DNA of 64,000 nt from the NCBI RefSeq assembly GCF_026210795.1, contig NC_089433.1:5605001-5669000 (forward strand), written 5' to 3'. The notes below the pieces were generated by a model. The model worked only from the letters and a program-made list of their open reading frames with translations. It made no database searches and was not told where the DNA came from. The translations under genes and the position numbers were made by a program. The stretch is from Rhizophagus irregularis (Eukaryota; Glomeromycota; Glomeromycetes; Glomerales; Glomeraceae). Positions 701 through 60,060 of the stretch are shown piece after piece; positions within the stretch are counted from its first letter, which is position 1; each line of letters starts with the position of its first letter.

Positions 701-2254
701 TTACGAATTTATTTTTTTTAAAAAAAATTAATTAGATTTTTTTAAAGAAAGTAAGTGAATAATAGTTTCGAAGTAAAGTTAAAGATGTGTGTCTTTAAGA
801 TTTTTTTTATAGTATTTTTGTAATTCAAAGTACTTTTTTTACTAATAAAAGTTATTTATCTTTAAAGAATAAGAATTAAACTTAGTAAAAATAAAAAATT
901 TTTAAAATTTATTGTAATGATTATAAAATATTTTGTTTATTTAATATTTAAAAAAATTTAGGTCTCTGAAAATCTAAGGTAAAATTTAATATAATTTTAA
1001 AAGGTCACTATATATATATGGTAAAATTATGAGATAAGAAAGGTTGGTAAAATTACTAGTAAATCTGAAATTTTGCCCGGAGACCTTTATTAGAAGTAAG
1101 CGGGGTCCTACGATTATTCCGATTCAGACGAGAATGATCCAAATTTGATATCTAGTTTAAAGTCTTTAAAACTGCAATCATGCAATCGATCAAGTTTATT
1201 TTCTGCTGACTGAGTTATCAATTAAGTTTGTGGCTGATTGGGTGGGTCACTGGTTTGAGAATTTTTATATTAAAAGCCATCAAAAAGCACATGATAACCT
1301 TGACATTTTAAATATGCTCATAGTAATTACGTAAAAGTTCTACAAAAGGCCTACTTCTCTTATTAGCGTTAGACATATGTAATAAACTTCACGTGATTTC
1401 TTATCAATTTGTTGAATTTCTTTTTTTAGTATCATTATATCATAAATAATTTCGATGTAACTATAATATCTTATATAATAACAATTAACGATAAAGTTAT
1501 ATTTCTTTCTAATTATTCCAATTTCTAATGCAGTAGATTGAAGATTCAATTAACAATGACTTACTCAAACTGTACAAATATGAAGAATTTAAAAATGTTA
1601 TTAAGATATACGAAGGTCATTGCTTAGAAGTATACAGCGTGGTTTACAAAACTCATCATTTTGCGATAAAATCACTACTTTATGATAATGATAAATGCAT
1701 GAATGAAATGTTCTGTGAGGTTGTTATTGCATATTTTGCTGTTTATTTTAAGATAAATTAAAAAATTTTTTCGGCATTTATTTAGATTCAACTTTATTGT
1801 CAAGTGAATTACTGTTCTGTCTCAACAATATACACTGGTCGAAATCATTTCTTTCGGCATTAATACCTTTTGTCAAAAGTTCATTATCGTCATCACGTGA
1901 TTTGTCACACATTCGGCTAATCACAAAAATCAGAAAAAGTTTGGCATAAAGATTTTTGGTCGATTTATGGTTGAGTTGTAATATAAAAAAAACCATAAAT
2001 CGACCAATACTTTTTTTTATCGATTTTTTATTAACAATGACAATCGACTTAAAACTTTTTTGACGATTTTTAACCAAATTTTTAATTAATTAATATCAAT
2101 AATATTTGACAATCAATTGTGCAATTCCGCAATTAGTCTGCAAATGTGGAACTGTAGCATTATTATAAACACATTTTACTGACAGTTTCTATCATATTTT
2201 TCAAAAAATGCATTTGAATTGGTAAAAAAATGCATTTTCGCAAATAAAGAAATC

Positions 2255-2720
2255 CAAATTCGGCCGGATAATTTGACAGATTATCCAATATCCATCAAAT
2301 TTTCTGGCCAAATCGCCTTTTTTTATCTTTTTTATCTTTTTAATTTAATTAATATAAAAATATTAATATTTAATATATATATTGTTTTTAAATTAATTAA
2401 TACATAAAAAAAAACACCAAAAAAAGGCATTTCGGCTGGATAATTTGACGGATTATCCAATATTTGTTGAATTATCCGGTTTATGACTGAATATTAAAAA
2501 AATCAAATCAGCCGGAACATCAATAACCGTCAAATTGACCGGCTGATCCATTTTTTTAAAAAAAATCGTTCTTTTTTAAAAATTATTAATGAAAAATGAT
2601 TTTTTTCTTTTACTTTAATGATAAGAAATAATCGTTTTCGATTAATAAGTTTAAAATTATATATTTTTTTGCAATTCCGCAATTTATCCGCAATTACGGA
2701 TTATTTGCCGCAATTACCTA
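2255..2720. repeat. Subterminal short repeats of the 4.0 kb element
   Basis: The motif (C/T)GGATAATTTGAC(A/G)GATTATCC recurs near 2265-2290 and 2435-2460 and in part near 2475 and 2530. CAATT(C/A)CCGCAATT-type repeats lie near 2120-2145 and 2670-2715. Similar short direct and inverted repeats sit at the other end (5600-5820: 'CAACATTC(G/A)(G/T)CAATTTGAAATTTGGA' twice). Such arrays are typical transposase-binding regions of CACTA-like elements. Confidence 0.55.
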
Positions 2721-2939
2721 TTTGCAGCACCATCTTTAACGTGAGATTATCCAGATCAAGTTAAAAAAAAAGCATGTTTTTTTAATGTGGCTCCTTCACC
2801 TCTATCTATTTCTTTCTCCCTTTTTTCCTCTCTCTTATTTCGTTATTTCCCCTCCCTTATTTCGTTCTTTTCCTTTCTTTTGCCCTTATTCTTCTATTGG
2901 CGTTGATAGGAAAAAAATTTTTTTATTTGTATTTTTTTA

Positions 2940-5080
2940 TTTTGTAGGTTTCGGCTTTTAGTTCTTGAGCTTTGGATATATGAAGTTTCGAAGTGAAAAC
3001 TTTGAAACTTTTTTTAAAAAAATTGTTGGATATATAGGTGAGTTTTGGAGTGAAAAATTTAAAACTCTAAAAAAAACTATTTTTTGTAATTTTTTCTTTC
3101 TTATATTTTGTAGGTTCTTTCGGTTATAGGGCTTTAGATATATGAGTGAGTTTCGGAGTGAAAACTTTGAAACTTTTTTTAAAAAAAATTATTAAATGTT
3201 TTTAATTTTTTTTTCTTCTATTTTGTAGGTTTCGACTTTCGGTTCTTGGGCTTTGGATATATGGGTAAGTTTCGAAGTGAAACTTCGAAACTTATTTTAA
3301 AAAAAAATTACTTTTTTAATTTTATTTTAATTTTCTTTTTCTATTTATAGGTTTCGACTTTCGGTTGGGCTTTAGATAAATAGGTGAGTTTCGAAGTGAA
3401 AGAATCGAAACTCTTTAAAGAATAATTTTTTTAATTTTTTTTTTTATTTTGTAGGTTTCGACTTTTGGTTCTTGGACTTTAGATATAAGGGTAAGTTTTG
3501 AAGTTAAAACTTCGAAACTTTCTTTTAAAAAGTATTTTTTTAATATTTTTATCTTCAATTTTGTAGATTTTAGCTTTCGATTATTGGACGTTGGATATAT
3601 GGGTAAGTTTCGAAGTAAAACTTCGAAACTTTTTTTTTAAAAAAATATTTTTTTTAATATTTTAAATTTTTTATCTTCAATTTTGTAGATTTCAGCTTTC
3701 GATTATTGGCGTTGAATATATGGGTAAGTTTCGAAGTTAAAACTTTGAAACTTTTTTTTAAAAGTAATTTTTTTTAATTGTTTCTTTTTCTATTTTGTAG
3801 ATTTCTTTCAGTTCTTGGGCGTTGGATATATAGGTGAGTTTTGAAGTGAAACTTCAAAACTTTTTTTTAAAAAAATATTTTTTTTAATATTTTAAATTTT
3901 TTATCTTCAATTTTGTAGATTTCAGCTTTTGATTATTGGGCGTTGGATATATGGGTAAGTTTTGAAGTTAAAACTTCGAAACTTTTTTTTAAAAGTAATT
4001 TTTTTTAATTGTTTCTTTTTCTATTTTGTAGATTTCTTTCAGTTCTTGGGCATTGGATATATAGGTGAGTTTCGAAGTGAAAGAATCGAAACTCTTTAAA
4101 GAATAATTTTTTTAATTTTTTTTTCTATTTTGTAGGTTTCGACTTTCAATTATTGGGCATTGGATATATGGGTAAGTTTTGAAGTGAAACTTCGAAACTT
4201 TCTTTTAAAAAAATATTTTTTTTAATATTTTAAATTTTTTATCTTCAATTTTGTAGATTTTGGCTTTCGATTATTGGGCGTTGGATATATGGATAAGTTT
4301 CGAAGTTAAAACTTTGAAACTTTTTTTTAAAAGTAATTTTTTTTAATTGTTTCTTTTTTCTATTTTGTAGATTTCTTTCGGTTCTTGGGCATTGGATATA
4401 TAGGTGAGTTTCGAAGTGAAAGAATCGAAACTCTTTAAAGAATAATTTTTTTAATTTTTTTTTCTTCTATTTTGTAGGTTTCGGCTTTTGGTTATTGGAC
4501 GTTGAATATATTATATGTAAGTTTCGATCAGAATGAAAGAATCGAAACTTTTAAAAAAAAATATTTTTTAATTGTTTCTTTATTCTATTTTGTAGATTTC
4601 GGCTTTCGGTTCTTGGGCGTTGGATATATAGGATAGGTGAGTTTTGAAGTGAAAACTTCAAAACTTTTTTTAAATAGAATTATTTTTTTTAGTTATTTTT
4701 TAATTTTTTTCTTCTATTTTGTAGGTATCGGTTTTCGGTTCTTGGGCATTAGATATACGGATGAGTTTCGGAGTGAAAACTTCGAAACTTTTTTTTTTAA
4801 AAAAATATTTTTTTTTTTAATTTATTTTAATTTTTTTTTTCTTTTTTGTAGGTTTTGACTTTCAGTTCTTGGGCTTTGGATATGTGGGTAAGTTTCGAAG
4901 AAACTTTGAAACTTCAAAACTTATTTTAAAAAAAAGATATTTTTTTAATTTTATTTTGATTATTTTTCTATTTTGTAGGTTTCGACTTTCGGTTGGGTTT
5001 TGGATATATAGGTAAGTTTCCACTTCGGATTTTTGGTTGGGTAAGTTTCGAAATATTTCGAAACTTAAATTTTTTTTATT
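2940..5080 (+). repeat. Array of about 18 intron-like hairpin units with micro-exons
   Basis: Each unit of about 105-165 bp has four parts. A short spacer of about 33-36 bp is related to GTTTCGACTTTCGGTTCTTGG plus GCTTTGGATATATG. A consensus 5' splice site GTAAGT or GTGAGT follows. An imperfect hairpin TTTCGAAGT...ACTTCGAAA then leads into a T-rich tract ending TTTTGTAG. The 3' splice-like sites fall near 2945, 3111, 3228, 3350, 3453, 3565, 3689, 3798, 3919, 4030, 4132, 4253, 4372, 4476, 4594, 4723, 4848 and 4975. Several 36-nt spacers read as 12 open codons, but others end in TATAG, so a continuous protein is not established. The same architecture recurs at 17.8-20.1, 36.9-37.95 and 51.8-53.95 kb. 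Confidence 0.8.
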
Positions 5081-5279
5081 AAAGAATTGGTTTACTAACC
5101 GTTTCTTTATTTTTTTTTGTAGATTTTCCTTTGGACTTCTATTGAATGGGTAGGTTTTGAATCTTCAAAACTTTGACCTTTTATTATTGTAATAATAACG
5201 GTTTACTAACCATTTCTTTATTTTTTTTTTGTAGGTTTCTCTTTCTTCATCTTTTTTGTCAGATAGAGTAAGTGATAGA

Positions 5280-5420
5280 TAATTTTGGATGAGTGGATGA
5301 TGGTGGACGATGGTGGACGATGGATGGTGGATGATGGGTAGTAGACGATGGATGTGGAGGATGGTTGACAATGGTTGACAATGGATGGTGAATGGTAAAT
5401 GGTGAATGGTGGATGGTGGA
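5280..5420 (+). repeat. GATGGTGGA-type microsatellite
   Basis: A degenerate tandem of GGTGGACGAT and GGATGGTGA motifs sits between the intron-like array and the right subterminal repeats of the 4.0 kb element. The open frames across it on the minus strand are low complexity and not taken as genes. Confidence 0.6.
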
Positions 5421-7001
5421 TGGTAGGTGTAAATAGACAGATACTGTAGAATGTATATATTAGATATTTAATATGATAATTTTTAATATGTAATTTTAAT
5501 AAAGCGAAATAATAAAATTTAATCAATTGATTGTTATTACAAAATTAAAAATAAGCTAAATACATAAAATTATTAACAATTAGACAAAATTAGACTTAAT
5601 TTCATCCAACATTCGGCAATTTGAAATTTGGACGAATGTCTAGTAAAAGTTGACGAATAGTTTATTTCCGATTTTTTAATGAATTTTGCCGATTTGTGAT
5701 TGCCAAGTGGCAGGCGAAGTGTGCAAATCGTCCATAATAACTTTGACGATTTTTTTGGCAATGATCAGCTGAATTTAAACCAACTTTCGTCCAACATTCA
5801 TCAATTTGAAATTTGGATGAAATGGACTATTCTGACCAGTGATATGGAGTGACTAGAAAAGGTATATTAAATTAATTTTAAAAAAATAAAAAATTTCATT
5901 AAATTAACATTTAAATTATAAGGAAAGGATAAGCCATTTTCCTTAGTATTGGAATTTGCAGAAAATGGGGAAATGATTGAGTATTTTCAAAATAGTCGTC
6001 AAACTATTTATATGGACGATTTTGTAAATATAATTGTACAAATTACGAGATTAATATTATATTTGCATGAAGAAGATATTTTTGGCATCAATATTGTATG
6101 ATAATTTCTTATAAAAATTTGCATATTATTTTAAATCAATTATTATTAAATTATTCTGATTTTCAGAGTTCCAATATTTTACTTGATAAAAAGGGAAGAG
6201 TTAAACTGTTAAGTTTGGAGCTATCAAATAGAATTTTAAAAAGTTTTCAAAGCAAAAATCAAGATATTATTGATTTTGGATCCATTTTTAAAGTTATTAA
6301 GTTTAAGGATAGAGAATATAACAAATTACTTAAAGGTAATGAATTTACTTATTATTAATTTTTATAATTATTGTACTAATCATACCAACATTATTGTGAC
6401 AGATTGTATAAATACTAGAAGGCTAGAAGATTGTATTAATAGGTTGGAATCTATGGGTCGATCTACTAAAGGTAAATGATGTAATTTATGACTATTATTA
6501 GTTCAAAAGCTAATTAATTTATGAATAGGACAGAAAGTCGAAATTGTCGTAGTGAAAAAATGAAAAAAAACATCTAGTATATTTTATAATGTATTAAGTC
6601 ATAAAAATCTAAAGTATAATAATAAGAATAGTATCGCATTTAAAGTTAAATTGAAATGAACGGAAAGCATTAGCAAAAGAGTAAAAAACCAACATATTGA
6701 AATGAAATGAAAAAAATAATACAAATGTAATTATTTGATTTAGTTAATATATGATGACAACGATTATAAGTTTGAAATTAGGCAAATATTAAATTTAAAG
6801 CACAATGCAATACAATGCAATCAACACAGTAGATTCAAAATAATACTTTGATTAATAATACAATCAGTAATGTAAAAACACTTGTTTTTAAGTATAGTAC
6901 ATAAATAAGATATATTACTTAAAGGAAAAATAAGTTGCGGAAATTACCCAGTTATTATGACAATTTTTTAATAAACGTAATTATCAAGCAATATAATTGC
7001 A

Positions 7002-16027: not shown

Positions 16028-16450
16028 TTTTCCTTAAACAAAAGAAAAAAAGAAAGAAATTCTTTGTACAATCGTTTGTTAAAGATATATTTATACTTTT
16101 AAGTAATAAATACGCATTCAGCAGATTGCAAAACTGTTAATAATGGTGGCATGGTCCGAAATATGGATTGGCGCAGTGGAAATCTGAATTGCAAATGCAT
16201 ACTGAATTGCCTTAATTGCAAACATTCCTTGTGAAAATGGAAAAACTTGTTTATTTAAAACCATATAAATTAGCTTTCATATGTTTTAGAAAAAGATGGT
16301 ACATTTAAGACAATAATGATGAGGGCAAAAGACTTAGAAAACGTCTGATTAGTGCTTCACTTACTGAATTGACGCGTCTCTTAATCAACTACTAAAAAGC
16401 AATTATGAAGCTAATCTTCTATTGACCTCAAATTAGAAACATTTGGTGAT
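16028..16450. other. Intergenic between paralogue B and the hAT element
   Basis: No gene seen. It ends in the left target-site duplication TTGGTGAT (16443-16450). Confidence 0.5.
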
Positions 16451-16919: not shown

Positions 16920-17680
16920 TCCCAGTAAATTAGGGTAAATTGTGTTACAATTTTGGGATAATGTAGGTCTTACAATTTGGCAAATTTTGTCAAAATGGCG
17001 GAATTCCTACAAATGTTCCAATTCAAATGTTGAGAAATTTTTCAGTAAATTATCATTAAATTGTGGGAAATTTTAGGCAAATCTTTAGTAATGATATGCA
17101 AACGAAGTGCAAATTGTGGTGAATTTAGTTAAATTTTTAGTAATTTTATGCAAACGTAATGTAAATTGTGGTGAATTTTAGGCAAATTTTTAGTAATGCT
17201 ATGCAAACGAAGTGCAAATTGTGGTGAATTTTGTTAAATTTTTAGTAATTTTATGTAAACGTAATGCAAATTGTGGTGAATTTAGTTAAATTTTTAGTAA
17301 TTTTATGTAAACGTAATGCAAATTGTGGTAAATTATAGTGAATTTTTAGTAATTTCATGCAAAAGTAATGCAAATTGTGGTAAATTGTAGTGTATTTTTA
17401 GTAATGTTATATAAATTGTTGAAAATTTAGGTGAATTTTTCAGCAATGTTGTGCAAACGTAATACAAATTGTGGTAAATTTTGCATTTTTTCGGTAAATG
17501 TTAGCTAAACTTTTGATAATTTAGTGAAATTTAGGATAATTTCGGACAATTGAGTGAAAATGTTTTACTGATTTTGGACAATTGAGTGTAAACGGTATAA
17601 ATGCAACATTTTCGGAGATAATTTAGTGAAATTTTGGACAATTGAGTGAAATTTAGTAATAATTTTAAACAATTTAGTGT
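16920..17680. repeat. Subterminal repeats, about 60-bp period
   Basis: About ten diverged copies of a unit containing GCAAATTGTGGTGAATTT, a GTTAAATTTTTAGTAAT block and TATGCAAACG(T/A)A. They grade into 'AATTTAGTGAAATTT' and 'GGACAATTGAGTG' motifs further in. The inverted counterpart is at 54080-54880. Such dense subterminal repeats are typical of CACTA-like transposase-binding arms. Confidence 0.75.
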
Positions 17681-17799: not shown

Positions 17800-20100
17800 C
17801 TAATTCATTCATGTATCAAATGTCCAGTGCCAAAGTAGAAGCCGGTGTAAACCTAAAAAAAAAAGAAAAAAACGAAGCGTTAATAAACATTTCGTTGAAA
17901 AAATCAAAATAAAGAAACATTTCGAAGTATATACCTTCGAACTGTTAAATTCCATATGTTCAAGGACCATTGAACCTAAAAAATAAAAAAATGAAACATT
18001 AATATACGTTTCGTTGAAAAAATAAAAAAAATAAAAAAATGAAACATTAATATACGTTTCGTTGAAAAAATCAAAATAAAGAAACATTTCGAAGTATATA
18101 CCTTCGAAATGTTAAATTCCATACGTTCAAGGACCGTTGAACCTAAAAAATAAAAAAATGAAACATTAATATACGTTTCGTTGAAAAAATCAAATTAAAG
18201 AAACATTTCGAAATATATACCTTTCGAAATGTTAAATTCCATATGTACAAAGACCGCTGAACCTAAAAAATAAAAAAAAAATGAAACGTTAATATACGTT
18301 TCGTTAAAAAAAATCAAAATAAAAAAAATATTTCGAAGTATACCTTCAAAATATTGAATTCCGGTTTGTCCAATGAGCCGCTGAACCTAAAAAAATATAA
18401 AAAAAAATGAAACATTAATATACGTTTCGTTGAAAAATAAAAAAAATATTTTGAAGTATACCTTCGAAATGTTTCCCTTTTCCCTTTCGTTTCACCCTTC
18501 CCTTTCATCTTCTCCTTCACCTTTCGTTTTCGTTCTCAACTTTCTCTTTCGTTTTCTCCTTTCCCTTAAAGAAACAAAGAAAAAAGAAAAAAATTTTAAT
18601 AAATATAAACAAAATAACGAAATTTCTCTAATTCCCTTTACCTTATTACCTTCCACCCAAAGCCTGGTTCGTGAATTCGTTCCGGCGTTCCTACAATAAA
18701 AGAAAAAAAAATAACGTTTAAAACGTTACTAAAAAAAGCACTAAACTCCCCTCTACCCTATTACCTTTCACACAAACAAAGTCCGGTTCGTAATTTCGTC
18801 CGGAGTTCCTACAAAAAGAAGAAAGAAATGTTAGAAACGTTTCCTTACAAAAAATAATTAAAAAAAAAATTTTTTTTTTTAAAGTTTTGAAGCGAAACGC
18901 TTCGAAACTTACCACATTTTACCGATTCGGAATATTGGAGCACGGACCTATAAAAAAAAAAGAAAAAGAAATGTTAAAACGTTTCTAAAAAATTAAAAAA
19001 GAAAGAACTCTTCAAACTTTTTCTCCCAAATACCTTCAAGTCCGGTTCGTAAAAATTCATCTGGCAATTCCTACAAAAAAAACAAAAAATAAAAAAAAGA
19101 AACGTTAAGAACGTTTCTAAAATGCAAAAAAAATTGAATTATCTCTCTTTCTTTCTTTAATTATCCAAAGACCTTTCGTCCGGCGTTCCTATAAAAGAAA
19201 AAAGAAACGTTAGAACGTTTCTTAGTAAAAAATAAAATAAAATCAAGTTTCGCAGCGAGACGCTGCGAAACTTACCATATTTTATCGATTTAGAATATTG
19301 GAGCACAGAACCTACAAAAAAAGAACATTAGAAAGTTCCTTTAAAAATCAAAAAAAATAAAAATAAAGTTTCGTAACGAAATATTCGTTACGAAACTTAC
19401 CATTTCGCCGTTTCGGATCCTTGGAATACCAAAACCTACAAAAAAGAATAAAGAACGTTAGTATTTAGTAACGTTCCTTTTAAAAATAAAAAAAAAGAAT
19501 CGAAGTTTCAAAACGAAACTTTGAAACCTAACCGAAATCCAAGATCGGAAGGAATCCAGAGTGTATCTACAAAAAAAGAAGAAACATTAGCTAACGTTTC
19601 TTAAAAAAATTTAATAAAATTAAGTTTCGCAACGCAACGTTGCAAAACTTACCGGTTCGTTTCGATTCCATCATCCAAACGTCTGGCGTTTCTACATAAA
19701 GAAAAAGGAAACTTAGAAACGTTTCTTTACAAAAATTAAAAAAAAAAAATTAAAAAGTTTCAAAGCGAAACGCTTCAAAACTTACCATTTTCGTTTCCTC
19801 GTTTCCTAAGTCAAAAATACTGAAAGACTTAAAAAAAAAATAAAGGATCATTAAAAAAAATGATCCTTATAAAAGTAAAAAAAAAAAATTTATTTTAAAG
19901 TTTCGAAGCGAAACGCTTCAAAACTTACCATAATTTCAGTTCGTTTCCCAAAGTAAAAACATCGAAAATCCTACAAAAAAGAAAGAAAGGAAACGTTAGA
20001 AACGTTTTCTTGCAACAAAGATTAAAAAAAAAAAAAAATTAAAAAAGTTTCGAAGCGTTTCGCTTCGAAACTTACCATAGTTTTTCTGAAAGACGGTTCC
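17800..20100 (-). repeat. Array of intron-like hairpin units (minus strand)
   Basis: Read on the minus strand, about 18-20 units alternate micro-exons of roughly 20-45 nt with intron-like segments. Each segment starts GTAAGTTTCG-type, folds into a hairpin, contains a second hairpin (AAACGTT...AACGTTT) and ends T-rich with TTTTGTAG or TTTTAG. Hairpin stems differ between units, for example TTTCGCAGC/GCTGCGAAA near 19250 and TTCGTAACGAA-type near 19375, yet each remains self-complementary. It is the inverted copy of the 51810-53960 array. Confidence 0.8.
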
Positions 20101-21929: not shown

Positions 21930-22190
21930 TTCCTATACTTCATCTGATAACAAATCTAATGATAGTGACGATAGCGAACTGAAAGTGATAAAGAAAAAGG
22001 GGAGATAAAGGCACGCTATCCTATCATATGAATCACGATGAAGAACACATAATATCCAACAAAGTGACGAATAACAATTCAAATTATCAAACCGCTGACA
22101 TCCCACATGAAGAATCTATAGGCAAAACTGGTCGTTTATTTGTTAGGAATTTACCTTACATTTGTACAGAATACGATTTACTAAAAAAAA
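21930..22190 (+). pseudogene. Captured fragment of an RRM-protein gene (MRD1/RBM19-like)
   Basis: The frame from 22028 ends with TGRLFVRNLPYICTEYDL, a first RRM strand with the RNP2-type LFVRNLPY. The words match my recollection of the Mrd1/RBM19 family of rRNA-processing proteins. Just upstream, in another frame, is an acidic Ser/Asp stretch (SSDNKSNDSDDSELK) of the kind preceding that RRM. The RRM stops after about 18 residues and runs into intron-like repeats. The piece lies inside the hAT element, between the nested element and the transposase, so it is best read as a host-gene fragment carried by the transposon. Confidence 0.6.
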
Positions 22191-22520
22191 AAATAAAGAA
22201 AATGTTAATAACGTTCAGTTTATTAACATTTCTAAACGCAAAAATCCCCTATTACAACTTACCTAAGGTCTTCAAGGCCGTTCTATACAAATAAATAAAA
22301 GGAAACATTAAGAATGTTCAGTTTATTTACATTTCTTTAAATAATAACACAAAAATCCCTTTATTACAACTTACCCAAGCTCCAAAGCTGTTCCCTATAA
22401 AAATAAAACAAAAAAGAAACGTTAATAATGTTTATTAACATTTCTTTAAGTAAATGGTGTAAAACTTCCTCCATTACAACTTACCCAAGGTATAACTTGC
22501 CATTAAAAAAAAATTAGCAG
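22185..22520 (-). repeat. Three intron-like units with 20-nt micro-exons (minus strand)
   Basis: On the minus strand the micro-exons GGAACAGCTTTGGAGCTTG and AACGGCCTTGAAGACCTTA are bounded by TATAG acceptors and GGTAAGTTGTAAT donors. Each intron-like segment holds an AACATT...AACGTTTC hairpin before the pyrimidine tract. The style is that of the larger arrays but the sequence family differs. They run antisense to the RRM fragment. Confidence 0.6.
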
Positions 22521-36259: not shown

Positions 36260-36720
36260 TTTGAACAAAAATTTGCGGTAAAAAGAAACTATAATTTAGA
36301 ATAATTTTGTGAATTTATAAAGTTTACGCAGATTTTTCCCAAGCCAAATTAGGTATCGCTATCCACTGATTTTACCCAACTTGGATTTTCCCGAAATTAT
36401 TATTATGATCGGACATTTATCAATCTATAGTATAGTGGTGATCCGCTTTTCTTTTCGCAACCAACTCTTATCCTTTTTTATTTCTTTTCCCCTTACTTTT
36501 CATACCGAATTAGTTAAATTTTACTTGTGTGATATATCCCGATTTCAATCTCTATTTGCGAATAAGAGGAAGAAAAGGAGTTGCGTAAAAACGTGAAGCG
36601 GGTAATGGACGTTATTGTTGAATTATTAAAGGATAGGATAGATGTTGAGAAGGAACCAGCGATGAAAAGGCAACGGGTTCAGGGTACAGTATTTCGAAAA
36701 ACAGGAGGATTAATCGTGTA
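36260..36720. other. Upstream region of the acyltransferase
   Basis: Likely holds the acyltransferase promoter. No specific motif is convincing. The plus-strand open frame 36381-36596 has no recognisable content. Confidence 0.35.
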
Positions 36721-36894
36721 TACAGTCCCCGATTGATACTGATGTGATCATTTCCATTTTAATGTTAAAAATAAGCTATCCGAATTTAAGCTTTTTTTAA
36801 CTTTCACTAAAAAAAACTTTTTTTTTATCTTTTTTATTCCGAAAGTTTCTGAAGTTTCCTTTACTTCGGAAACATTTTTTTTTATCTTTTTTAT

Positions 36895-37960
36895 TAGGGA
36901 ATCGGCTCCAAAGTGGATAGCCGAATTCCAAGGTAAGTTTCGAAAATAATCTTCGAAACCTTTAAAAAAAACGTTTCTAACTTTTTTTTATTTCTTTTTT
37001 GTAGGAATCGGCTCCAAAGTGGATGGCCAAATTCCAAGGTAAGTTTCAAAAATAATCTTCAAAACCTTTAAAAAAAAACGTTTCTAATGTTTTTTTTTAT
37101 TTTTTTTTGTAGGAATCGCTCCGATGTGGATAGCCGAATTCCAAGGTAAGTTTCGAAACTAATTTTTGAAGCTTAAAGAAAAAACGGTTTTAACGTTTTT
37201 TTATTATGATTTTGTAGAAATCGGCCCAATAAGGAAGGAATCCGGTGAGTTTTCGAAGTTGGACTTCGAAAACTTTTAATAAAAACGTATACTAACATTT
37301 TTTATAATTGTTTTTGTCGGAAACCGGCTATAACGTAGATACCGGAAGTCTACTGAAGATAAGGAAACTGGCCCATCTTGGATACCAGAATTCCAGGTAA
37401 GTTTCCGAAGTTATTTTTTCGAAAACTTTAAAAAACGTATCTTAACTTTTTTTATGACTTTTGTAGGAAATCGGCTCCTAATATACCGAATTCCGTGGTA
37501 AGTTTCGAGATTTAATTCAGAAAACTTTAAACTAACGTTTCTAACGTTTTTTTTTATTTCACTTTTGTAGGAAATCGGCTCCGGCGTGGAATCCAGAATC
37601 CAAAGTGAGTTTCAAAAATAATTTCGAAACTTTTTTTTTTAAAAAAAAAACGGTTTTAACGTTTCTTTCATTTCTTTTTTATAGGAAACTGCTTCGGCAT
37701 GGATAATCAGCAGGTAAGTGTTAGGGGGTTTTTAAATTATTTTTAAGAAACGTTCTAACCATGATCACGTTATGTTGTAGTACAAATTAAGAAAAGTTCG
37801 AGCGAACTTTTCTTAACCATGATCACGTTAAGTTTCTTTCTTTAATTTTATAGGTTTCGGCTTCTTTAGGCGTGAGTAATCAGTAGATGAATGTTTATAG
37901 GGAAGTTTCGAAATTATCTATAAGAGACATTCTAACATTTCTTTCTTTAATTTTGTAGGT
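36895..37960 (+). repeat. Array of about ten intron-like hairpin units
   Basis: Micro-exons of about 34 nt (GAATCGGCTCCAAAGTGGAT plus AGCCGAATTCCAAG) are followed by GTAAGTTTCGAAA...TTTCGAAAC hairpins. A second AACGTTTCTAACGTT element and a T-rich stretch ending TTTTTTGTAG come next. The first three micro-exons are nearly identical; later ones diverge (AATCGGCCCAATAAGG..., AATCGGCTCCGGCGTGG...). The unit period is about 110 nt at first. Confidence 0.8.
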
Positions 37961-37964
37961 TTCG

Positions 37965-38398
37965 GCTTTTATGGGTGGATATGAGGTGGATCGGTGCAAA
38001 AAAAACTGCATAGGGATTTTTGGTGGATTTTGGCAGGGTTTTTTGTAGATTTTTAATAGGTTTTTTTTGGAGGGTTTTGGATGAGTTTTTTGGTAGGTTT
38101 TTGGGTTTTGGTGGGTTTAATTTGCTAATTTGTATCATTTTTTACAAAATATGATTTTAATAAAAATATTTCAAAATATTTCAAAATCTGTAATATCAAT
38201 TTGCTAAATCGTAATGTTGATTTTGTTAAATCGGAATTAATTCAGAATGTTGATTTGTAATGATTTAGTTCCGAATTTATATTCCGATTTGCTGCCAATC
38301 GGAACTTTTTAAATTCGGAACTTTTAACCCAAAATCGACCCAAAATCGACCTAAAATCGGACATCCGATTTCCAGCCGATTGCACCATTTTGACCGGT
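37965..38398. mobile_element. Probable right end of a DNA element (GACCGGTG terminus)
   Basis: After the array come short repeats (TTTTGG(T/C)(G/A)GG motifs to 38120, then TTCGGAAC, AAATCGG and AAAATCGACC motifs to 38370). The stretch ends TTTTGACCGGTG at 38398. The layout array, subterminal repeats, GACC(G/A)GTG matches the right end of the 1833-5841 element. No matching left end or target duplication was found, so the element is probably truncated. Confidence 0.45.
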
Positions 38399-38399
38399 G

Positions 38400-43864: not shown

Positions 43865-46800
43865 TAGTGTTCCGAACGGATCGAATCAGATCGGATTTGA
43901 GATGAATCCAATCTGATCCAAATTCGGATCAAAAAAAGTTGGATTTGATCCGATCCGAATTCAGATCAAAAATAATTGGATCCGATCCAATCTGAATCCG
44001 AAATGAGCTTGATTCGATTCGGTCTAAATCCAATTCAGATAAAACCGATCCAGTCCGAATCCAATCTGAATCAGAAGTTAAAAAACATTTTGCAACATTT
44101 TTTTAAAGATTTATTTAATAAAAAACGTTGCGAAACATTTTTTATTTCAATTTAAACGAAAAAAAACTGGTGTGAAATGGTTTTTTAACGAATTTAATAA
44201 AAACTGTTGCAAAACGGTTTTTTAACGAATTTAATAAAAACTGTTGCGAAATGGTTTATTTAACTAAAAAAACCGTTTCGCAACAGTTTTTTTAACGATT
44301 TTAATATAAACTGTTGCGAAATGGTTTATTTAATTAAAAAGAACCATTTTGCAACAGTTTTTTTAATTGTTTTAATATAAACTGTTGCAAAACGGTTTAT
44401 TTAACTAAAAAAACCGTTTTGCAATGGTTTTTTTAACGATTTTAATATAAACCGTTGTGAAACGGTTTATTTAACTAAAAAGAACTGTTTCGCAACGGTT
44501 CTTTTAATTGTTTTAATATAAACCATATGTGCCAATTTTTGGAATTAGTCTAAATTAAGATTTTTATAAAAATTTAATATTTTAGTAAGATTAACATTAC
44601 ACAAATCTAAATTAAATATGTGTTACATATTTACGTAACTCATATTTAATAAAAAATAAAAAAATTTTTTTAATCAATATTCAAAAATAACGGTAATAAC
44701 CACTTCTTTTTTCCCATCACTGCCCATCACTTTTCCATCATTTTTCTATTCACTTTTATTAAATATGACAAAAAAGTTTATAAGCAAATATAGCAGTTAT
44801 TTTTAAGTGGTAAGTAAAAGAAAAAACTTAATATTTTATATACATAGATAAGACATATTTTTTCATAATTTTTAGCTTTAATTTATTGTTTTTTCTTTGT
44901 AAAAAATACATGCAAATAAAAAATAATTATGATGTAAAATAGTTGTAAAATGAATAATAAGATATTCTTTTTTTTCAAAATAACTAATTATATATTTGTT
45001 TTTTATCTTTTAAAATTATTTTATTAGATTTATTCTACTAAAATCCTTAAATGGCAAATAAAATCTTTTAAATAAAGTAAAAGAATTTGGGATTCTCTTA
45101 TGAAAGCATTTTTTGGTAAGAAATAAAATTTTCAGATCGGACTTTATGCAGGTGACAAAATCGTGCATTATTATTCCTGGAGATATGCTAACGTCATCAT
45201 TTTACATTCATTTGAAAGCTGAGAATTTGCTCTATCGTAAGAATCAAAGATCAGGAAAATTGGATCACTGGATGAGGCGTAATTAACGATCAAAGTCAAA
45301 TCAAATTTAAAAATTAAAAATAAATATATTAGACGTAATTATTCACAATCCAGTGATTCAATTCATTCGATTTTAGGCTTATTAGATAGACCTCAATTTT
45401 CTCTTTCAAATGAATATAATTTCATTCGTGTAGCTTGCATCTACAGGTATTTAATAAATTTTTTTATATCAGATTTTATCAAACTTATAAAATTTTATAT
45501 TAATAATATAATTGATGATTCCTAAACATCTACATATATTAAACGAATTATTTTAAATTTATTTTAAAGATAAAAGTTGGCATCACCTTAGGGAGCAAAG
45601 TTCATTCAAATTGAATCACTACATGTGAAGTAATTAATGATCAAATTTAGATAAAATTCAATAAATATACTGAACGTGATTACTGAACAACTAGTGATTC
45701 AATTCACTTGATTTTAGATTCATTAGATAGATCTCGATTTTCTCTTTCAAATGAATGTAAATTTATTTGTATAGCTTATTTCTACGAAGAATTATCAATG
45801 ATTTTGTCATGAGAGTTATATTTGATCTTTTAAATTTTAATGATATCTTATATTAAAAAAAAATTAAAAATTATATAATTAATTAGTTTTTTTTGCATTA
45901 CCTAGTATAAATTTATTATTCTTATATAAATGATAATTTATATTTGCTTTAATAAAATTATTTTTGTGTAAAAAATTAGATTCCAAGGATCGGCCCATAT
46001 GCTGTTGCGAAACGGTTTATTTAATTAAAAAAAACCGTTTTGCAACGGTTTTTTAAAATATTTTAATGTAAACCGTTGCGAAACAGTTTATTTAACTAAA
46101 AAAAACGTTTCGCAACAGTTCTTTTAATTGTTTCAATATAAACCGTTGCGAAATGGTTTATTTAATTAAAAAGAACCATTTTACAACGGTTTATTTAATT
46201 AAAAAGAACCATTTCGCAATTGTTTATTTAATTAAAAAGAACCATTTCGCAACGGTTTATTTAATTAAAAGAACCGTTTCGCAATGGTTTATTTAATTAA
46301 AAAGAACCGTTTCGCAATGGTTTATTTAATTAAAAAGAACCACTTCGCAACGGTTTATTTAATTAAAAAGAACCATTTCGCAACGGTTTATTTAATTAAA
46401 AAGAACCATTTCGCAACAGTTTATTTAATTAAAAAGAACCATTTCGCAACAGTTTATTTAATTAAAAAGAACCATTTCGCAACAGTTTATTTAATTAAAA
46501 AGAACCGTTTCGCAACATTTTATTTAATTAAAAAGAACCATTTCGCAACGGTTTTTTAAAATATTTTAATGTAAACCATTGCGAAACGGTTTATTTAATT
46601 AAAAAGAACTGTTTCGCAATGTTTTTTTAATGATTTTAATGTAAACTGTTGCGAAATGGTTTATTTAACTAAAAAAACCATTTCGCAATGGTTTTTTTAA
46701 TGATTTTAATATAAACCGTTGCGAAATGGTTTATTTAACTAAAAAGAACTGTTTCGCAACGGTTTTTTAAATTGTTTTAGTATAAACCGTTGCGAAATGG

Positions 46801-47379
46801 TTTATTTAACTAAAAAGAACCGTTGCGCAACGGTTTTTAAATTGTTTTAATATAAACCGTTGCGAAACGGTTTATTTAATTAAAAAGAACCGTTTCGCAA
46901 CAGTTTATTTAATTAAAAAGAACCATTTCGCAACAGTTTATTTAATTAAAAAGAACCGTTTCACAACGGTTTTTTAAAATATTTTAATATAAACTGTTGC
47001 GAAACAGTTTATTTAACTAAAAAAACCCGTTGCGCAACAGTTTTTTAAATTATTTTAATATAAACTGTTGCGAAATGGTTTATTTAACTAAAAATAACCA
47101 TTTCACAACGGTTTTTTATTGTCTTAATAAAAAATGTTGCGCAAAACATTTTTTATTTTCTAAGATTTGGATCTGATTTAGATCTGATCTGAATCCGTTC
47201 GAATCTGATTCGATCCGATCCGATTTGAATGAATAACTGATCTGATCCGATTCGATCTGAAACAGATCAAATTTTTTTGATTCAGATCGGATCACAGATC
47301 ATAAAAAGCTAATCCGATCCAATCCGTTTCAGATCAGATCCACGGATACGAATCAGATCAGATTTTTTTTGGAACACTA
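43865..47379. mobile_element. 3.5 kb hAT-like element carrying a satellite
   Basis: Inverted ends TAGTGTTCC and GGAACACTA are flanked by an exact 8-bp duplication ACAAAAAC (43857-43864, 47380-47387), as in hAT elements (TAGNG ends). Degenerate GATCCGATCCGAATC repeats line both ends (43875-44075, 47160-47370). The interior is two satellite blocks (44100-44520 and 46010-47150) around unique AT-rich DNA (44520-46010) with no gene. No transposase is present. The 46284-46559 open frame is just the satellite read in one frame. Confidence 0.88.
44100..47150. repeat. Palindromic satellite built on AACCGTTGCGAAACGGTT
   Basis: Tens of tandem units of about 35-85 bp alternate AACCGTTGCGAAACGGTT, or its variants, with TTATTTAA(T/C)TAAAAA(A/G)AACC. 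Two blocks flank 44520-46010. In the second block a simpler 35-bp repeat (GGTTTATTTAATTAAAAAG plus AACCATTTCGCAAC) is amplified about ten times (46170-46540). Variants keep pairing, for example AACTGTTGCG...CGCAACAGTT. Confidence 0.9.
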
Positions 47380-49341: not shown

Positions 49342-49519
49342 AGGTTTGTGGTTTATAGTTTTTTTTTACCCCTAGAAGATAACCGGGTATGACCGGAGGA
49401 CCGCAGGACTACAGGACTACAGGAGGGTAACCAGGTAGGAGTGCAGATCTTTGGAAAAAATATTCGGCAATTGAAGATTAGGTAACTATAAATTAGTACT
49501 CGATTTGATAGAACAAAAA

Positions 49520-51429
49520 ATGACTGCCCAAGTTCCAGCAATCTTTAACCCTAACAACCGTTTTTTCTACGATGACCTTCTTAAAAAGTGTATAGGTACA
49601 CACACAAAAGAAAGCGTCAATTCAGCAATCTCAGCTTCTGTGGCTTTCATCACCACGAAGTCTGGCATGTGGATCAGAAAAAAAAAGGCTTATAATGAAA
49701 GCATATACTTTGAGATTGCTACAGATCTCAAGGGAATTTCTACTAAGCACAAGGTAAGTATTCGGTCAGATGCAAGAGAAGACAATGATATGATTACATC
49801 CACCAAGTTAAAGGACCTTCTTATCCAAGCCTCAGTCACAAAGATCTGTTATACAGATGTAAACTTCATGCCTTATCCCCCAAATGCACCAAAGTATAAT
49901 CCTGAATTCTTCAATCTCTTTCTAGGTTTCAGGGCTTAACCTGCTGAGCACATCAAACCAAACCTAATTAATCCAATTATTCGACATGTTCATGAGGTAT
50001 GGTGTGCAGAGGACAAGCAGTTAACCATATACATCCTTAACTGGCTCGCATTTCTGGTTCAAAATCCAGACAAAAAACCTGGTACAGCAATTATTATGCG
50101 CAGTCCTCCCAGATGTGGTAAGAATATCTTAACTGATTTTATCAGAGAACATATTATTGGTCGTGAAAACTTCCTCTCCACTACCCGTCTTGAAGATGTA
50201 ATGGGAAGGTTCAATGCAGCTGTTCGTGCCAAAAAACTCATCATCCTCAATGAATGTGATATGACAGGTAAGGAATGGCATGGAGCAAATAACTGACTTA
50301 AGAGTTTAATCACTGGGCCTTACATCTCTATTGAGGAAAAAGGAATAGATGCAAGATTATTGATGACTTTGCTGGCTACGATCCTAAGTAATCATGCTAT
50401 GCCAATCCGCATGAAATGAAATGATGAAAGATTTGTAGCCCTCAATGTATCAGCCAAATATAAAAACAATCAAGAATACTTCAGTTCTCTAGTAAAAGTA
50501 TTAGAAATCCAGATACAGCCAGTTCCTTTATGTCCTATTTACTTAGCCGAGACTTAACTATCTTCAATCCCCGATCTATTTCTGATACTCAAATGAAACA
50601 GGAGCTAATCAAAGCAAGTATTCCAAATCCCCAGCGTTTCATACAATATTACCTTGAAATGATGTGCCCCAACAATTGTGATACACTTGAAATCCCTTGT
50701 ACAAATTTCCATAGCACTTACCAGAATTGGTGCAGTGAGAAGGGTGAAAACAAAACACTTAGTGATAATAAGTTTGGTATGGAGATTAAGCAATTCATTC
50801 CTAAAACTCGACCAAGACGTTCAGGTGCTTGAATAAACTATTACATACTAGATAAAGCAAAAATCGAAAAGAATTTTAGTAGAGTAATCCAGGAGACACA
50901 AGACATACAGAATGTACAGGTAGATCAAGAGGAAGTGGAGCTAGTTGTTGAGAAACTTGTTGAAGAAAAACCTACTAAAGAACAACCAGTTTCCAAAAAG
51001 ACTCCACCACCAGTACCATCCAAGCCCGATTGCTTGAAGGTAAAACCAGCACCTGTCATCAATAAGGACCCTATTCCTGAAGAACCTCCAGCTCCCATAG
51101 AGTCAGACACTGATGAAATTATAGACAGTTTCTCAGACTGTTATCTATCTGATGAGGAACCTGATCAAGAAGATGAGCCGCCTGCTGAGGAACCTGCATT
51201 TGAAGCTGATGATGACTACGACGTTTTAGATGACTTGCTATCTGACTCAGATCCTATAACCACAACCCCAGCTCCTGAGCAACAACCCGAGTCTTTCGCA
51301 GAATCTTCTGCATCTGTTGATAAATCTAATTTAGAACCGGCTTCCGAAGAGCAACCTATCTCAGAACCTGACACAGAACCAGAAGTTGACTGGGATTCTG
51401 AACCAAAGGAAGGTAAAGCTGCGGTATAA
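49520..51429 (+). pseudogene. SF3-type helicase (DUF5906-like) replication protein, interrupted
   Basis: A nearly continuous 636-codon region. The P-loop is IIMRSPPRCGKN (about 50090), the Walker B-like block is KKLIILNEC (about 50230), then LKSLITGPYISIEEKG and a sensor-like SNHAMPIRMK-x-NDERFVAL. SRDLTIFNPRSI and an acidic, Pro/Glu-rich tail of about 165 residues follow. This order is that of superfamily-3 helicase domains in virus- and plasmid-like replication proteins. Interruptions: TAA at 49937, TGA at 50294, 50417 and 50830, and a one-base shift in the A-run near 50494. The three TGA sit at plausible Trp positions (ANN-x-LKSL, MK-x-NDERF, SGA-x-INYY), while TGG is also used elsewhere. 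It is either a decayed gene or one in a different code with two lesions. It ends exactly where the inverted-repeat arm begins. Confidence 0.72.
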
Positions 51430-51809
51430 CGAAAAAAAAAATTAAGCTTTTTTTTAGCAAAAGCTTAATTTTTTTTTTCTCACGGCCTTTACCTCTTCTT
51501 TCTTTCGCCCTTCCCCTTCTCTCTTTCTCTCACCTTCACCTTCCCTCTTTCTTTCACCTTCCCCTTCCCTCTTTCTTTCACCTTCCCCTTTCTTCTTTCT
51601 CTCACCTTCCCCTTCCCTCTTTTTTTTTACCCTTCCCCTTCCCTCTTTTTTCTTTCGCCTTCTCCTTCCCTCTTTCTTTTACCTTCACCTTCCCTCTTTC
51701 TCCTCCTTCTTCCCCTTCCTCTTCCTCCACCCTTCCCCCTTCCCTTTTTTCTCCCACTCCTTTCCCATTCCCTTTCCCCTTCCCGAAACCGTCTTTCAGA
51801 AAAACAATG

Positions 51810-53960
51810 GTAAGTTTCGAAGTGAAACGCTTCAAAACTTTTTTAAATTTTAAATTTTTTTTTTAATTCTTTGTTGTAAGGAAACGTTTTTAACGTTTCC
51901 TTTCTTTCTTTTTTGTAGGATTTTCGATGTTTTGACTTTGGGAAACGAACTGAAATTATGGTAAGTTTCAAAGCGTTTCGCTTCGAAACTTTAAATTTTT
52001 TTTATAGAATTTTCAATGGTTTGGCTTTGGGAAACGAGAAACCGAAGGGTAAGTTTCAAAGCGTTTTGCTTCGAAACTTTTTAATTTTTTTTTTTAATTT
52101 TTGTAAGGAAACGTTTCTAAGTTTCCTTTTTCTTTATGTAGGAACGCTGGATGTTTGGATGATGGAATCGAAACGAACCGGTAAGTTTTACAACGTTGCG
52201 TTGTAAAACTTAATTTTATTAAATTTTTTTAAGAAACGTTAGCTAACGTTTCTTCTTTTTTTGTAGATACACTCTGGATTCCTTCTGATCTTGGATTTCG
52301 GTTAGGTTTCAAAGTTTCGTTTTGAAACTTCGATTCTTTTTTTTATTTTTTAAAAGGAACGTTACTAAATACTAACGTTCTTTATTCTTTTTGTAGGTTT
52401 CGGTATTCCAAGGATCTAAAACGGCAAAATGGTAAGTTTCGTAACGAATATTTCGTTACGAAACTTTATTTTTATTTTTTTTGATTTTTAAAGGAACTTT
52501 CTAACGTTCTTTTTTTTTGTAGGTTCTGTGCTCCAATATTCTAAATCGATAAAATATGGTAAGTTTCGCAGCGTCTCGCTGCGAAACTTGATTTTATTTT
52601 GTTTTTTACTAAGAAACGTTCTAACGTTTCTTTTTTCTTTTATAGGAACGCCGGACGAAATGTCTTTGGGTAATTAAAGAAAGAGGGAGAGATAATTCGA
52701 TTTTTTTTTGCATTTTAGAAACGTTCTTAACGTTTCTTTTTTTTATTTTTTATTTTTTTTGTAGGAATTGCCGGATGAATTTTTACGAACCGGACTTGAA
52801 GGTATTTGGGAGAAAAAGTTTGAAGAGTTCTTTCTTTTTTGATTTTTTAGAAACGTTTTATCATTTCTTTTTCTTTTTTTTTGTAGGTCCGTGCTCCAAT
52901 ATTCCAAATCGGTAAAATATGGTAGTTTTGAAGCGTTTCGCTTCGAAACTTTAAAAAAAATTTTTTTTTTAATTATTTTTTGTAAGGAAACGTTTCTAAT
53001 GTTTCTTTCTTCTTTTTGTAGGAACTCCGGACGAAATTATGAACCGGACTTTGTTTATGTGAAAGGTAATAGGGTAGAGGAAAGTTTAGTGCTTTTTTTA
53101 GTAACATTTTAAACGTTACTTTTTTTTTCTTTTATTGTAGGAACACCAGAACGAATTCACAAACCGGGCTTTGGGTGGAAGGTAATATGGTAAAGGGAAT
53201 TAGAGAAATTTTGTTATTTTGTTTATATTTATTAAAATTTTTTTCTTTTTTCTTTGTTTCTTTAAGGGAAAGAAGAAAACGAAAGAGAAAGTTGAGAACG
53301 AAAATGAAAGGTGAAGGAGAAGATGAAAGGGAAGGGTGAAACGAAAGGGAAAAGGAAAACATTTCGAAGGTATACTTCGAAATATTTTTTTTTATTTTTC
53401 AACGAAACGTATATTAATGTTTCATTTTTTTTATATTTTTTTAGGTTTAGCGGCTCATTGGACAAACCGGAATTCAATATTTTGAAGGTATACTTTGAAA
53501 TATTTTTTTTTATTTTGATTTTTTTTAACAAAACATATATTAACGTTTCATTTTTTTTTTATTTTTTAGATTCAGCAGTCTTTGTACATATGGAATTCAA
53601 CATTTCGAAAGGTATATATTTCGAAATGTTTCTTTAATTTGATTTTTTTAACGAAACGTATATTAATGTTTCATTTTTTTATTTTTTAGGTTCAACGGTC
53701 CTTGAACGTATGGAATTTAACATTTCGAAGGTACTATATACTTCGAAATGTTTCTTTATTTTGATTTTTTCAATGAAACGTATATTAATGTTTTGTTTTT
53801 TTATTTTTTAGGTTCAACGGTCCTTGAACGTATAGAATTTAACATTTTGAAGATATATACTTTGAAATGTTTCTTTATTTTGATTTTTTTAACGAAACGT
53901 TTATTAACGCTTCATTTTTTTCTTTTTTTTTTAGGTTTACACCAGCTTTTACTTTGGCAC
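51810..53960 (+). repeat. Array of about 17 intron-like hairpin units (plus strand)
   Basis: Micro-exons of 24-42 nt, such as ATTTTCGATGTTTTGACTTT plus GGGAAACGAACTGAAATTATG, are bounded by TTTTTTGTAG and GTAAGTTTC. The 5' hairpins differ but pair perfectly: GTTTTACAACG/CGTTGTAAAAC (52190), GTTTCGTAACGAA/TTCGTTACGAAAC (52434) and GTTTCGCAGCG/CGCTGCGAAAC (52561). The 3' hairpins (GGAAACGTT...AACGTTTCC, AGAAACGTTAGCTAACGTTT) also pair. From 53360 on, the units change to ATTTCGAAGGTATACTTCGA-type hairpins with micro-exons GGTTCAACGGTCCTTGAACG plus TATGGAATTTAACATTTCGAA. Micro-exon lengths (42, 41, 39, 34, 35, 36) are not all multiples of three. Confidence 0.82.
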
Positions 53961-54079
53961 TGGACATTTGATACATGAATGAATTAGAGGTGCAGATTAT
54001 CCATAGATTATCGTTAAATAATAATAATTGTACATTTATTAATAAATAAAATTATAATAAATTATGTGAAATTATTAAA

Positions 54080-54880
54080 ACAGTGTTTTAAATTGTCATG
54101 GCGTTTACACTAAATTGTTTAAAATTATTACTAAATTTCACTCAATTGTCCAAAATTTCACTAAATTGTCTCTGAAAATGTTGCATTTATATCGTTTACA
54201 CTCAATTGTCCAAAATCAGTAAAACATTTTCACTCAATTGTCCGAAATTATCCTAAATTTCACTAAATTATCAAAAGTTTAGCTAACATTTACCGAAAAA
54301 ATGCAAAATTTACCACAATTTGTATTACGTTTGCACAACATTGCTGAAAAATTCACCTAAATTTTCAACAATTTATATAACATTACTAAAAATACATTAC
54401 AATTTACCACAATTTGCATTACTTTTGCATGAAATTACTAAAAATTCACTATAATTTACCACAATTTGCATTACATTTGCATAACATTACTAAAAATTTA
54501 ACTAAATTCACCACAATTTGCACTTCGTTTACATAACATTACTAAAAATTTGACTAAATTCACCACAATTTGCACTTCGTTTACATTACATTACTAAAAA
54601 TTTGACTAAATTTACCACAATTTGCATTACGTTTACATAAAATTACTAAAAATTTAACTAAATTCACCACAATTTGCATTACGTTTACATAAAATTACTA
54701 AAATTTTAACAAAATTCACCACAATTTGCACATTCGTTTGCATAGCATTACTAAAAATTTGCCTAAAATTCACCACAATTTACATTACGTTTGCATAAAA
54801 TTACTAAAAATTTAACTAAATTCACCACAATTTGCACTTCGTTTGCATATCATTACTAAAGATTTGCCTAAAATTTCCCA
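54080..54880. repeat. Subterminal repeats of the right arm
   Basis: More than ten copies of ACCACAATTTGCA(T/C)T(A/T)CGTTT plus GCATA(A/G)(C/A)ATTACTAAAAATTT, the reverse complement of 16920-17680. Confidence 0.8.
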
Positions 54881-55089
54881 CAATTTAATGATAATTTACT
54901 GAAAAATTTCTCAACATTTGAATTAGGAATTCTGTAGGAATTCCGCGATTTTGACAAAATTTGCCAAATTGTAAGTCCTCCATTATCCCAAAATTGTAAC
55001 ACAATTTACCCCAATTTACCGGGATAATTCTTAATTTGCCAGAAAAATTCCAGGCAAATTTTGCGACAATGACATCTGTTCGACCTGTG

Positions 55090-59300: not shown

Positions 59301-59329
59301 TTTAATTTTATTTTTTTATTTTTTTTTTC

Positions 59330-60060
59330 TTTAGAAACGTTTTAACGAAATGGACGAAAATAAGTGTTTCTTCATTATTTTTCATTTGCTTTGTTTAAAA
59401 ACGTTTCTTATTAATTTTTTTTTTGTAAAAAAACCTTTTGGAAGCGAAATGGGTGAAAGGCAACTAGGTAAGTCAATTTTTGTTTGCTTTGTTTAAGAAC
59501 GTTTTCTAATGTCTATTAAAATTTTTTGTAGGAACATCTCCTGGAGGCGGAATGGACCCCTGGAGATGAAAGGTAAGGGAGGAAGTCTTTTTTTCCTTTT
59601 TTTTGCTTGTTTTAGTTTAAGAACGTTTTTAACGTTCTTTTGTTAATTTTTTTCTTAGAAAAACCCTTGAAGGTGTCCCCTGAAGGTGAAATGGATTCCT
59701 GAACATAAAAGGTAAGGGAAGGAAGTCTTTTTTATTTTCCATTTGTTTTGTTTAGGAACGTTTTTTAACATTCGTTTATTAATCTTTTTTTGTAGGAACA
59801 CCCCCTGGAGGTAAAATGGACTTCTGAAGACGAAAGGTAAGGGAAGAGAATCTTGTTTTTCACTCTTTTCATTAGTTTCATTTTAGGAACGTTTTTTAAC
59901 ATTCTTCTAATAATTTATTTTTGTAGGAACACTCCTAGGACTAAATAGAAGAAGGGTGAGTGCTTCTTCCATTTTTTTCATTTTTTTTTGTTTAGAAACG
60001 TTCTTCCATTAATTTTTTTTAGGGGTACCTCTTTGAGACGAAACAGACTCCTAGAGAAAT
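59330..60060 (+). repeat. Array of about six intron-like units
   Basis: Micro-exons such as GAACACCCCCTGGAGGTAAA plus ATGGACTTCTGAAGACGAAAG are bounded by TTTTTGTAG and GGTAAGGGAAGGAAGTC. Each intron-like segment contains AGGAACGTTTTTTAACATTC-type hairpins. The 5' hairpin of other arrays is missing here, but the second hairpin and the spacing (about 120 nt) are kept. Confidence 0.65.

Follow-up and report, generated by a model that had tools for sequence, protein, structure and literature searches.

In Rhizophagus irregularis, tandem arrays of intron-like units separated by micro-exons were found in a window of 64,000 nucleotides (contig NC_089433.1, positions 5,605,001–5,669,000). Their covarying hairpins lie at fixed positions relative to the splice signals, DNA transposons with CAC..GTG ends contain the arrays of at least two families, and the arrays tested have no coding sense. 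We consider it about an even chance that these are non-autonomous elements of the EnSpm/CACTA type which carry a non-coding array of spliceosomal introns, with splice signals masked by structure and splicing gated by folding. A sequence-only reading of the window had described the arrays before any database search; it was largely right, and the pattern extends far beyond the window, but its statements about "every unit" were too strong. The features of the window are listed in Table 1.

Table 1. Arrays, hairpin examples and transposon features located in the window.
Feature	Position	Strand	Basis or remark
Array A (main finding): 17 intron-like units and micro-exons	51780..53960	+	sequence reading, folding
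Donor hairpin type I, example: GTAAGT donor within the 5' arm of the stem	51810..51840	+	fold
Donor hairpin type II, example: exon end pairs with intron start, donor in the loop	53361..53383	+	fold
Second hairpin, example: palindrome around branch-point-like TTAAC	51878..51902	+	fold; genome-wide class
Pyrimidine-rich stretch before the ATG/GTAAGT junction; putative promoter or 5' leader	51480..51790	+	
Copy A: 5'-truncated EnSpm-type element with array A	51418..55089	+	homology to copy F from 51418; 3' end at 55089
52-bp subterminal direct repeats, copy A	54377..54886	+	repeat analysis
3' terminal inverted repeat CACAGGTCGAACAGATGTCATTGTCGC, copy A	55063..55089	-	first 23 bases: 84 genome copies
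Copy F: complete element of 4935 bp, both ends present, target duplication TAA	16855..21789	-	
Subterminal direct repeats, copy F	17058..17480	-	repeat analysis, copy comparison
Array of copy F, a homologue of array A	17857..20075	-	sequence comparison
Element with array B, ends CACTGGTCGAAAT..ATTCTGACCAGTG, target duplication ATA	1833..5841	+	
Array B: donor hairpins, second pattern unmatched	2948..5240	+	pattern search
Array C	36890..37980	+	two relatives elsewhere in elements with CACTGGTCGAAA ends
Array D: branch-point palindromes, donor hairpin unmatched, element ends not found	59320..60040	+	
Array E: short; branch-point palindromes, donor hairpin unmatched, element ends not found	22160..22520	-	

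All 17 introns of array A end in AG and 16 of them start with GT. Intron 17 starts with AT in copy A, and the acceptors vary (GTAG, ATAG, TTAG and TAAG). The exons are mostly 24–44 nt long, close to the 24–42 nt spacing described before, apart from a single exon of 103 nt. In A, F and the element L046, the array starts at an ATG/GTAAGT junction behind a pyrimidine-rich leader. The number of units differs between array copies.

When the units were folded individually, a check proposed in the sequence-only reading, a donor hairpin was predicted in 13 of the 17 introns and a second hairpin, around a branch-point-like motif (TAAC, TAAT), likewise in 13, with four introns lacking each. The donor hairpin lies immediately 3' of the donor in introns 1–7 and 10 (8/17), which is the arrangement that had been attributed to every unit; in introns 13–17 (5/17), the apical loop contains the donor and the exon supplies the 5' arm, and for introns 8, 9, 11 and 12 (4/17), folding gave no hairpin at the donor. 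The second hairpin, also claimed for all units, was not predicted in introns 2, 9, 12 and 14. The three distinct 5' stems proved to be real, each pairing with its partner, namely GTAAGTTTTACAACG../..CGTTGTAAAACTT, GTAAGTTTCGTAACGAA../..TTCGTTACGAAACTT and GTAAGTTTCGCAGCG../..CGCTGCGAAACTT.

A larger set of 96 introns was picked by donor motif, acceptor motif and following donor, not by structure, and thinned from 283 distinct candidates. Compared with shuffled sequences, excess folding was found in the donor segments (mean z -3.0; 65% below -2) and in the branch segments (mean z -1.9; 47% below -2), and 108 exons were without excess structure (mean z -0.17; 6% below -2). Exon ends of L046 and array C had seemed paired by eye, and exon hairpins were rejected, the 108 exons folding like shuffles. 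Seven introns (read by eye) of a P450-like gene beside array C served as a comparison with ordinary introns; one of them had a donor z of -2.5, and another had a branch part with a z of -6.5 at only -1.6 kcal/mol.

The splice signals of the 96 introns, namely donor, branch point, pyrimidine tract and acceptor, occur in order and at the usual distances. A branch-point-like motif was in range of the acceptor in 83 of these introns, which had been chosen by donor and acceptor motif. It fell within a predicted hairpin in 69 of the 96, whereas 20 shuffles gave 26.3 on average and 34 at most. The distance from the A of these 69 motifs to the acceptor has a median of 25 nt (range 17–50), and this A is paired in 45 and unpaired in 24. 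Since hairpins are found at the donors and around the branch motifs in this proportion of introns, both the donor and the branch point tend to be masked according to the predicted folds.

Covariation was evaluated in 40 distinct donor hairpins, where the search pattern fixes the outer stem and only the inner pairs count as evidence. Changes on both sides of the stem were found in 61 cells versus 24.9 (sd 5.6) after shuffling, with none of 500 shuffles as high, a result in favour of the pairing claimed in the sequence-only reading. The covariation score was 0.322 versus 0.179, and 0.056–0.095 with the partner slid. Two of the five measures were unremarkable: of 500 shuffles, 95 reached the observed value for double-change pairs and 194 that for pair types. 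In 74 distinct hairpins from chromosomes 1 and 2, among the matches listed (1103 in total; overlapping longer readings of two omitted), inner positions free of the search pattern were paired in 90.6% of cases versus 65.2% expected, the maximum of 1000 shuffles being 71.6%. Hairpin pairing in the arrays exceeds chance and covaries.

Pattern searches were extended to the whole assembly (146,748,485 bases, 32 contigs). The donor-hairpin pattern GTAAGTTTC-N6-30-GAAACTT gave 1103 matches versus nine for the reversed control, and the branch-point palindrome gave 1106 versus 0 for its control, palindromic sites being counted twice in these totals as they match on both strands. The matches are spread across many chromosomes, and all 33 donor-hairpin matches within the window lie in arrays; 16 of them are in array B, which has 0 matches of the second pattern. 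The arrays at 2.9, 17.8 and 36.9 kb had been described as distinct in sequence. The exons do differ among arrays A, B and C, but the array at 17.8–20.1 kb and that at 51.8 kb belong to inverted copies of one element that are 90.6% identical. At 22.2 and 59.3 kb, where the pattern had been said to recur in a shorter form, the second pattern was matched and the donor pattern was not. A search of Rfam gave nothing at gathering scores within the window. A block at 35100–39790, which comprises array C and the terminal part of a transferase-family gene (PF02458), occurs twice more on the same chromosome (L050 and L051) with 98% and 97% identity, extending to both ends of the fetched sequences.

Dispersed copies of the element carrying array A have a common sharp 3' end, ..TTCGACCTGTG, beyond which the flanks are unrelated. 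The reverse complement of this end, CACAGGTCGAACAGATGTCATTG, is present in 84 genome copies at up to 3 mismatches (67 exact), and the 5' end CACAGGTCGAAGGGGCACCATTG in 77; for 64 of these, a facing 3' end lies no more than 30 kb away, with one of the 3' ends used twice. According to length, these 64 paired-end elements comprise 44 of 4.0–7.0 kb, 16 of 7.9–9.5 kb and four longer ones, with A-like arrays in 28/44, 5/16 and 0/4, respectively. Length does not separate array-free from array-bearing elements cleanly, because five of the 16 long rows carry an A-like array; these five rows represent four elements, for which nested insertion is a possible explanation. Among the matches listed for chromosomes 1 and 2, donor hairpins were found in all five short elements and none in the 8.3-kb element. 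L046 and L047, fetched short elements without an A-like array, carry other arrays with 8 and 11 donor hairpins, and two fetched 8.4-kb elements, L045 and L048, gave 0 matches to either hairpin pattern.

Target duplications of 3 bp were found for 14 of 15 elements checked (copy F, four fetched elements with AAA, TAC, CTT and GTG, and nine of a further ten, the tenth matching over 2 bp). These 15 were taken without selection for a duplication, B, L052 and L053 being excluded since their search had demanded one. The terminal inverted repeats of the A/F-type elements begin with CAC (CAC..GTG). L045 (8391 bp), the one element scanned, matched the tnp2 transposase (PF02992, E 8.9e-10), and its ends and subterminal repeats are common to the short elements. 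L052 and L053, the relatives of array C, are elements with duplications AGA and GCT, whose ends fall where homology between the two loci stops. The CAC..GTG ends, the 3-bp target duplications and the tnp2 match in a longer relative support the assignment of the array-bearing elements of A, F, B and the two C relatives to DNA transposons of the EnSpm/CACTA type. The earlier placement of the arrays inside transposons holds for these, and not for array C in the window, D and E, whose ends were not found: for D and E, CAC ends with 3-bp duplications were searched and none was found, and for C, the one AT-rich candidate, with 3 mismatches, was not believed. For copy A, an end at 48499 was rejected, as it matched imperfectly and copy F is homologous only from 51418 onward.

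Other CACAGGTCGAA ends adjoin or lie inside array elements (L028, 3587–3593; L026, 2400–2751), a hint of insertion beside or into such elements. The interval 49475–51429 (+) holds gene fragments that match Pox_D5 (E 1.3e-6) and, below threshold, an RFX DNA-binding domain; they stop where copy A begins, and the stretch is missing from copy F.

A comparison of copies A, C15 and F revealed 139 variable array sites, of which 65 are CpG transitions, as are 25 of the 36 located in stems; CpG methylation of R. irregularis transposons is reported in PMC8647823. Non-CpG variable sites number 6/357 in donor stems, 5/212 in branch stems and 24/788 at unpaired intron sites. Of 306 donor-stem pair comparisons, 24 differ, 18 on one side and six on both; the latter include swaps of C-G to T-A and A-T to G-C (introns 3 and 4), and two of the six are comparisons of two unpaired states. 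These recent copies show decay more than upkeep. The claim that pairing is maintained was supported across distinct units, where covariation exceeds shuffles, and not among recent copies, whose changes are mostly one-sided. Since copies decay in place, any upkeep would have to occur in source copies instead of at each insertion.

The mostly one-sided stem changes also speak for a rival explanation, in which the hairpins are DNA palindromes without a role in splicing, either by-products of tandem duplication and template switching in AT-rich DNA or transposase sites, and the intron-like appearance is incidental. We regard this as the strongest of the rival explanations, although a rather unlikely one. 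The mismatch types show no clear RNA bias: G.U versus A.C mismatches number 14 to 10 in the 74 hairpins, which is not clearly unequal, and 30 to 16 in the 40 hairpins, or 21 to 16 without the nine G.U at donor +3. At this position, the distinct hairpins of the loci analysed have A-T in 111 cases, G-T in 25, A-C in four, A-A in two and G-C in one, counts that do not decide the strand because G at +3 is an ordinary donor base too. Palindromic satellites are also found elsewhere in the window (44076–44526 and 46002–47152), in tandem units of 33, 66 and 70 bp of the AACCGTTTCGCAACGGTT type that match themselves inverted. Against this explanation, the array hairpins are located at donors and around branch-point-like motifs, the exons are unstructured, and the donors and acceptors are near consensus. 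In addition, long direct repeats, as possible transposase-binding sites, are located elsewhere, in subterminal positions, and are kept in both fetched long elements, which lack arrays. The sequence-only reading had proposed structured DNA for transposition as one function of the arrays. Since the hairpins follow the splice signals and the exons are unstructured, this is less favoured and the evidence points to RNA splicing. Another tandem repeat of the window, at 33854–34202, has a 61-bp unit in 5.6 copies.

The array could also be plain decayed filler, carried passively and derived from an old gene fragment that an EnSpm element took up a single time and that then expanded by unequal exchange. 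CpG decay, closed reading frames, the varying unit number and the mostly one-sided stem changes agree with this, but neither covariation among divergent units nor the recurrence of this layout with different exons and different ends is expected for a passenger, and we find the explanation improbable.

Still less credit can be given to a protein-coding micro-exon gene, for example one for a secreted effector in which each exon contributes a repeat, although a micro-exon gene had been suggested by the sequence-only reading. In spliced array A, the ATG frame is open for 48 codons and then closes, many exons of array B are 33 or 36 nt long, and repeat effectors are known in this fungus (PMC11333574). 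However, the lengths of the 108 exons show no preference for a frame (41/31/36 modulo 3). Stops occur in all three frames of spliced array A, in all three frames of five spliced exons of L046, where the ATG frame closes after 7 codons, and in all frames of ten spliced exons of array B. No open frame of more than 186 aa was found in F, L046 and L047; the longest in F (171 aa) is of low complexity, as is the longest in L046. The non-CpG variable sites of copies A, C15 and F amount to 36/733 in exons versus 35/1357 in introns, a comparison of raw counts. Because the exon lengths ignore the frame, the tested frames are closed and the exons vary more than the introns, a protein gene in the arrays is unlikely. 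An SP7-like effector, described in PMC11333574 with a signal peptide, hydrophilic repeats and a conserved intron before the first repeat, was ruled out by the closed frames and the many introns in the gene layout. Two cysteine-rich open frames, at 7690–8346 (+) and 15269–16033 (-), are related to each other (481 aligned columns, 69% DNA identity), and a Pfam search with the latter gave no match.

Least probable of all is the suggestion that the units are introners, mobile introns multiplying into genes and caught here in tandem: stretches of ~60 nt from the donor on are 77–87% alike between the A-type arrays (A, F and L046) and B though the exons differ, and matches are scattered over many chromosomes, but ten of 11 isolated matches fetched (a sample from roughly two dozen, by eye, among the matches listed) lay in arrays, and the termini and target duplications identified are those of whole elements. 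The eleventh match is a lone hairpin intron unit (around position 1440 of L037), directly behind what by eye resembles an SF3B4-like gene remnant; the introner-like reading thus found no support in this sample.

We prefer the reading of a non-coding intron array whose splicing is gated by folding. Each unit offers a near-consensus donor and acceptor, most units having the donor, the branch-point motif or both within small self-complementary hairpins, and the differences in unit number between copies are as expected from tandem duplication. In this model, the element would be transcribed by the host. A hairpin that ties up the donor from position +3 onward is in competition with U1 and U6, and U2 would be hampered by a stem across the branch point; the hairpins may in this way gate the access of the spliceosome to both sites. 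The transcript would consequently be spliced slowly, in order or conditionally. The benefit of the array is not obvious, because strong donor and branch stems would be expected to hinder splicing; speculatively, the element might gain through an effect of spliceosome engagement on RNA silencing. A more far-reaching version, which we put forward tentatively and would not call probable, is that a non-autonomous transposon lineage keeps a dedicated non-coding device of tandem introns whose donor and branch point are locked in covarying hairpins, in which folding of the transcript sets splicing or its order. Such a device would be retained despite wide divergence between families, and it would counter host RNA surveillance or soften insertion into host transcripts.

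If splicing is indeed controlled by the hairpins, DNA transposons would carry an RNA-structure device built from host-type introns, and a single genome would offer more than 1000 natural variants, many of them compensated, for the effects of donor and branch structure on splicing. This would also aid the classification of some repeats in a fungus for which PMC11075540 reports two thirds of the transposable elements as unclassified. If they are never spliced, the arrays would be a striking intron-like sequence kept for another reason.

Schistosome micro-exon genes have many tiny exons in a row, which are protein-coding and symmetric; the arrays resemble them in the many tiny exons and differ in exon lengths that ignore the frame. 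Introners, introner-like elements and symmetrical stwintrons (PMC9860276, PMC8469720) are similar to the units in being repeated introns with self-complementary structure. As described there, they enter genes singly, whereas the units found here are in tandem inside a larger transposon, with hairpins at the donor and the branch point and not joining two intron ends. The main text of the introner survey PMC9860276 contains neither Rhizophagus nor Glomerom, and the word intron is absent from the main text of PMC8647823 and PMC11075540, which deal with the transposons of this fungus. Among the literature matches listed, there was no description of such arrays, an absence that is not proof of novelty. 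A possible context is provided by SCANR in Cryptococcus, where poorly spliced transposon transcripts feed RNAi, so that poor splicing is tied to silencing (PMC5851062). Plavaka transposons, which PMC11075540 describes as prevalent in R. irregularis, have a transposase of a related group, but PMC12730594 lists TGT..ACA or CATCA..TGATG as their termini, with 2–3 bp duplications, unlike CACAGGTCGAA here; the distinction is drawn by termini. The closest likeness is to fungal EnSpm/CACTA (CMC) elements, for which CAC..GTG ends and 3-bp duplications are described (PMC12730594) and with which the elements share these features, subterminal repeats and, in a longer relative, tnp2. Unlike them, the short elements of R. 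irregularis carry arrays of hairpin introns and micro-exons.
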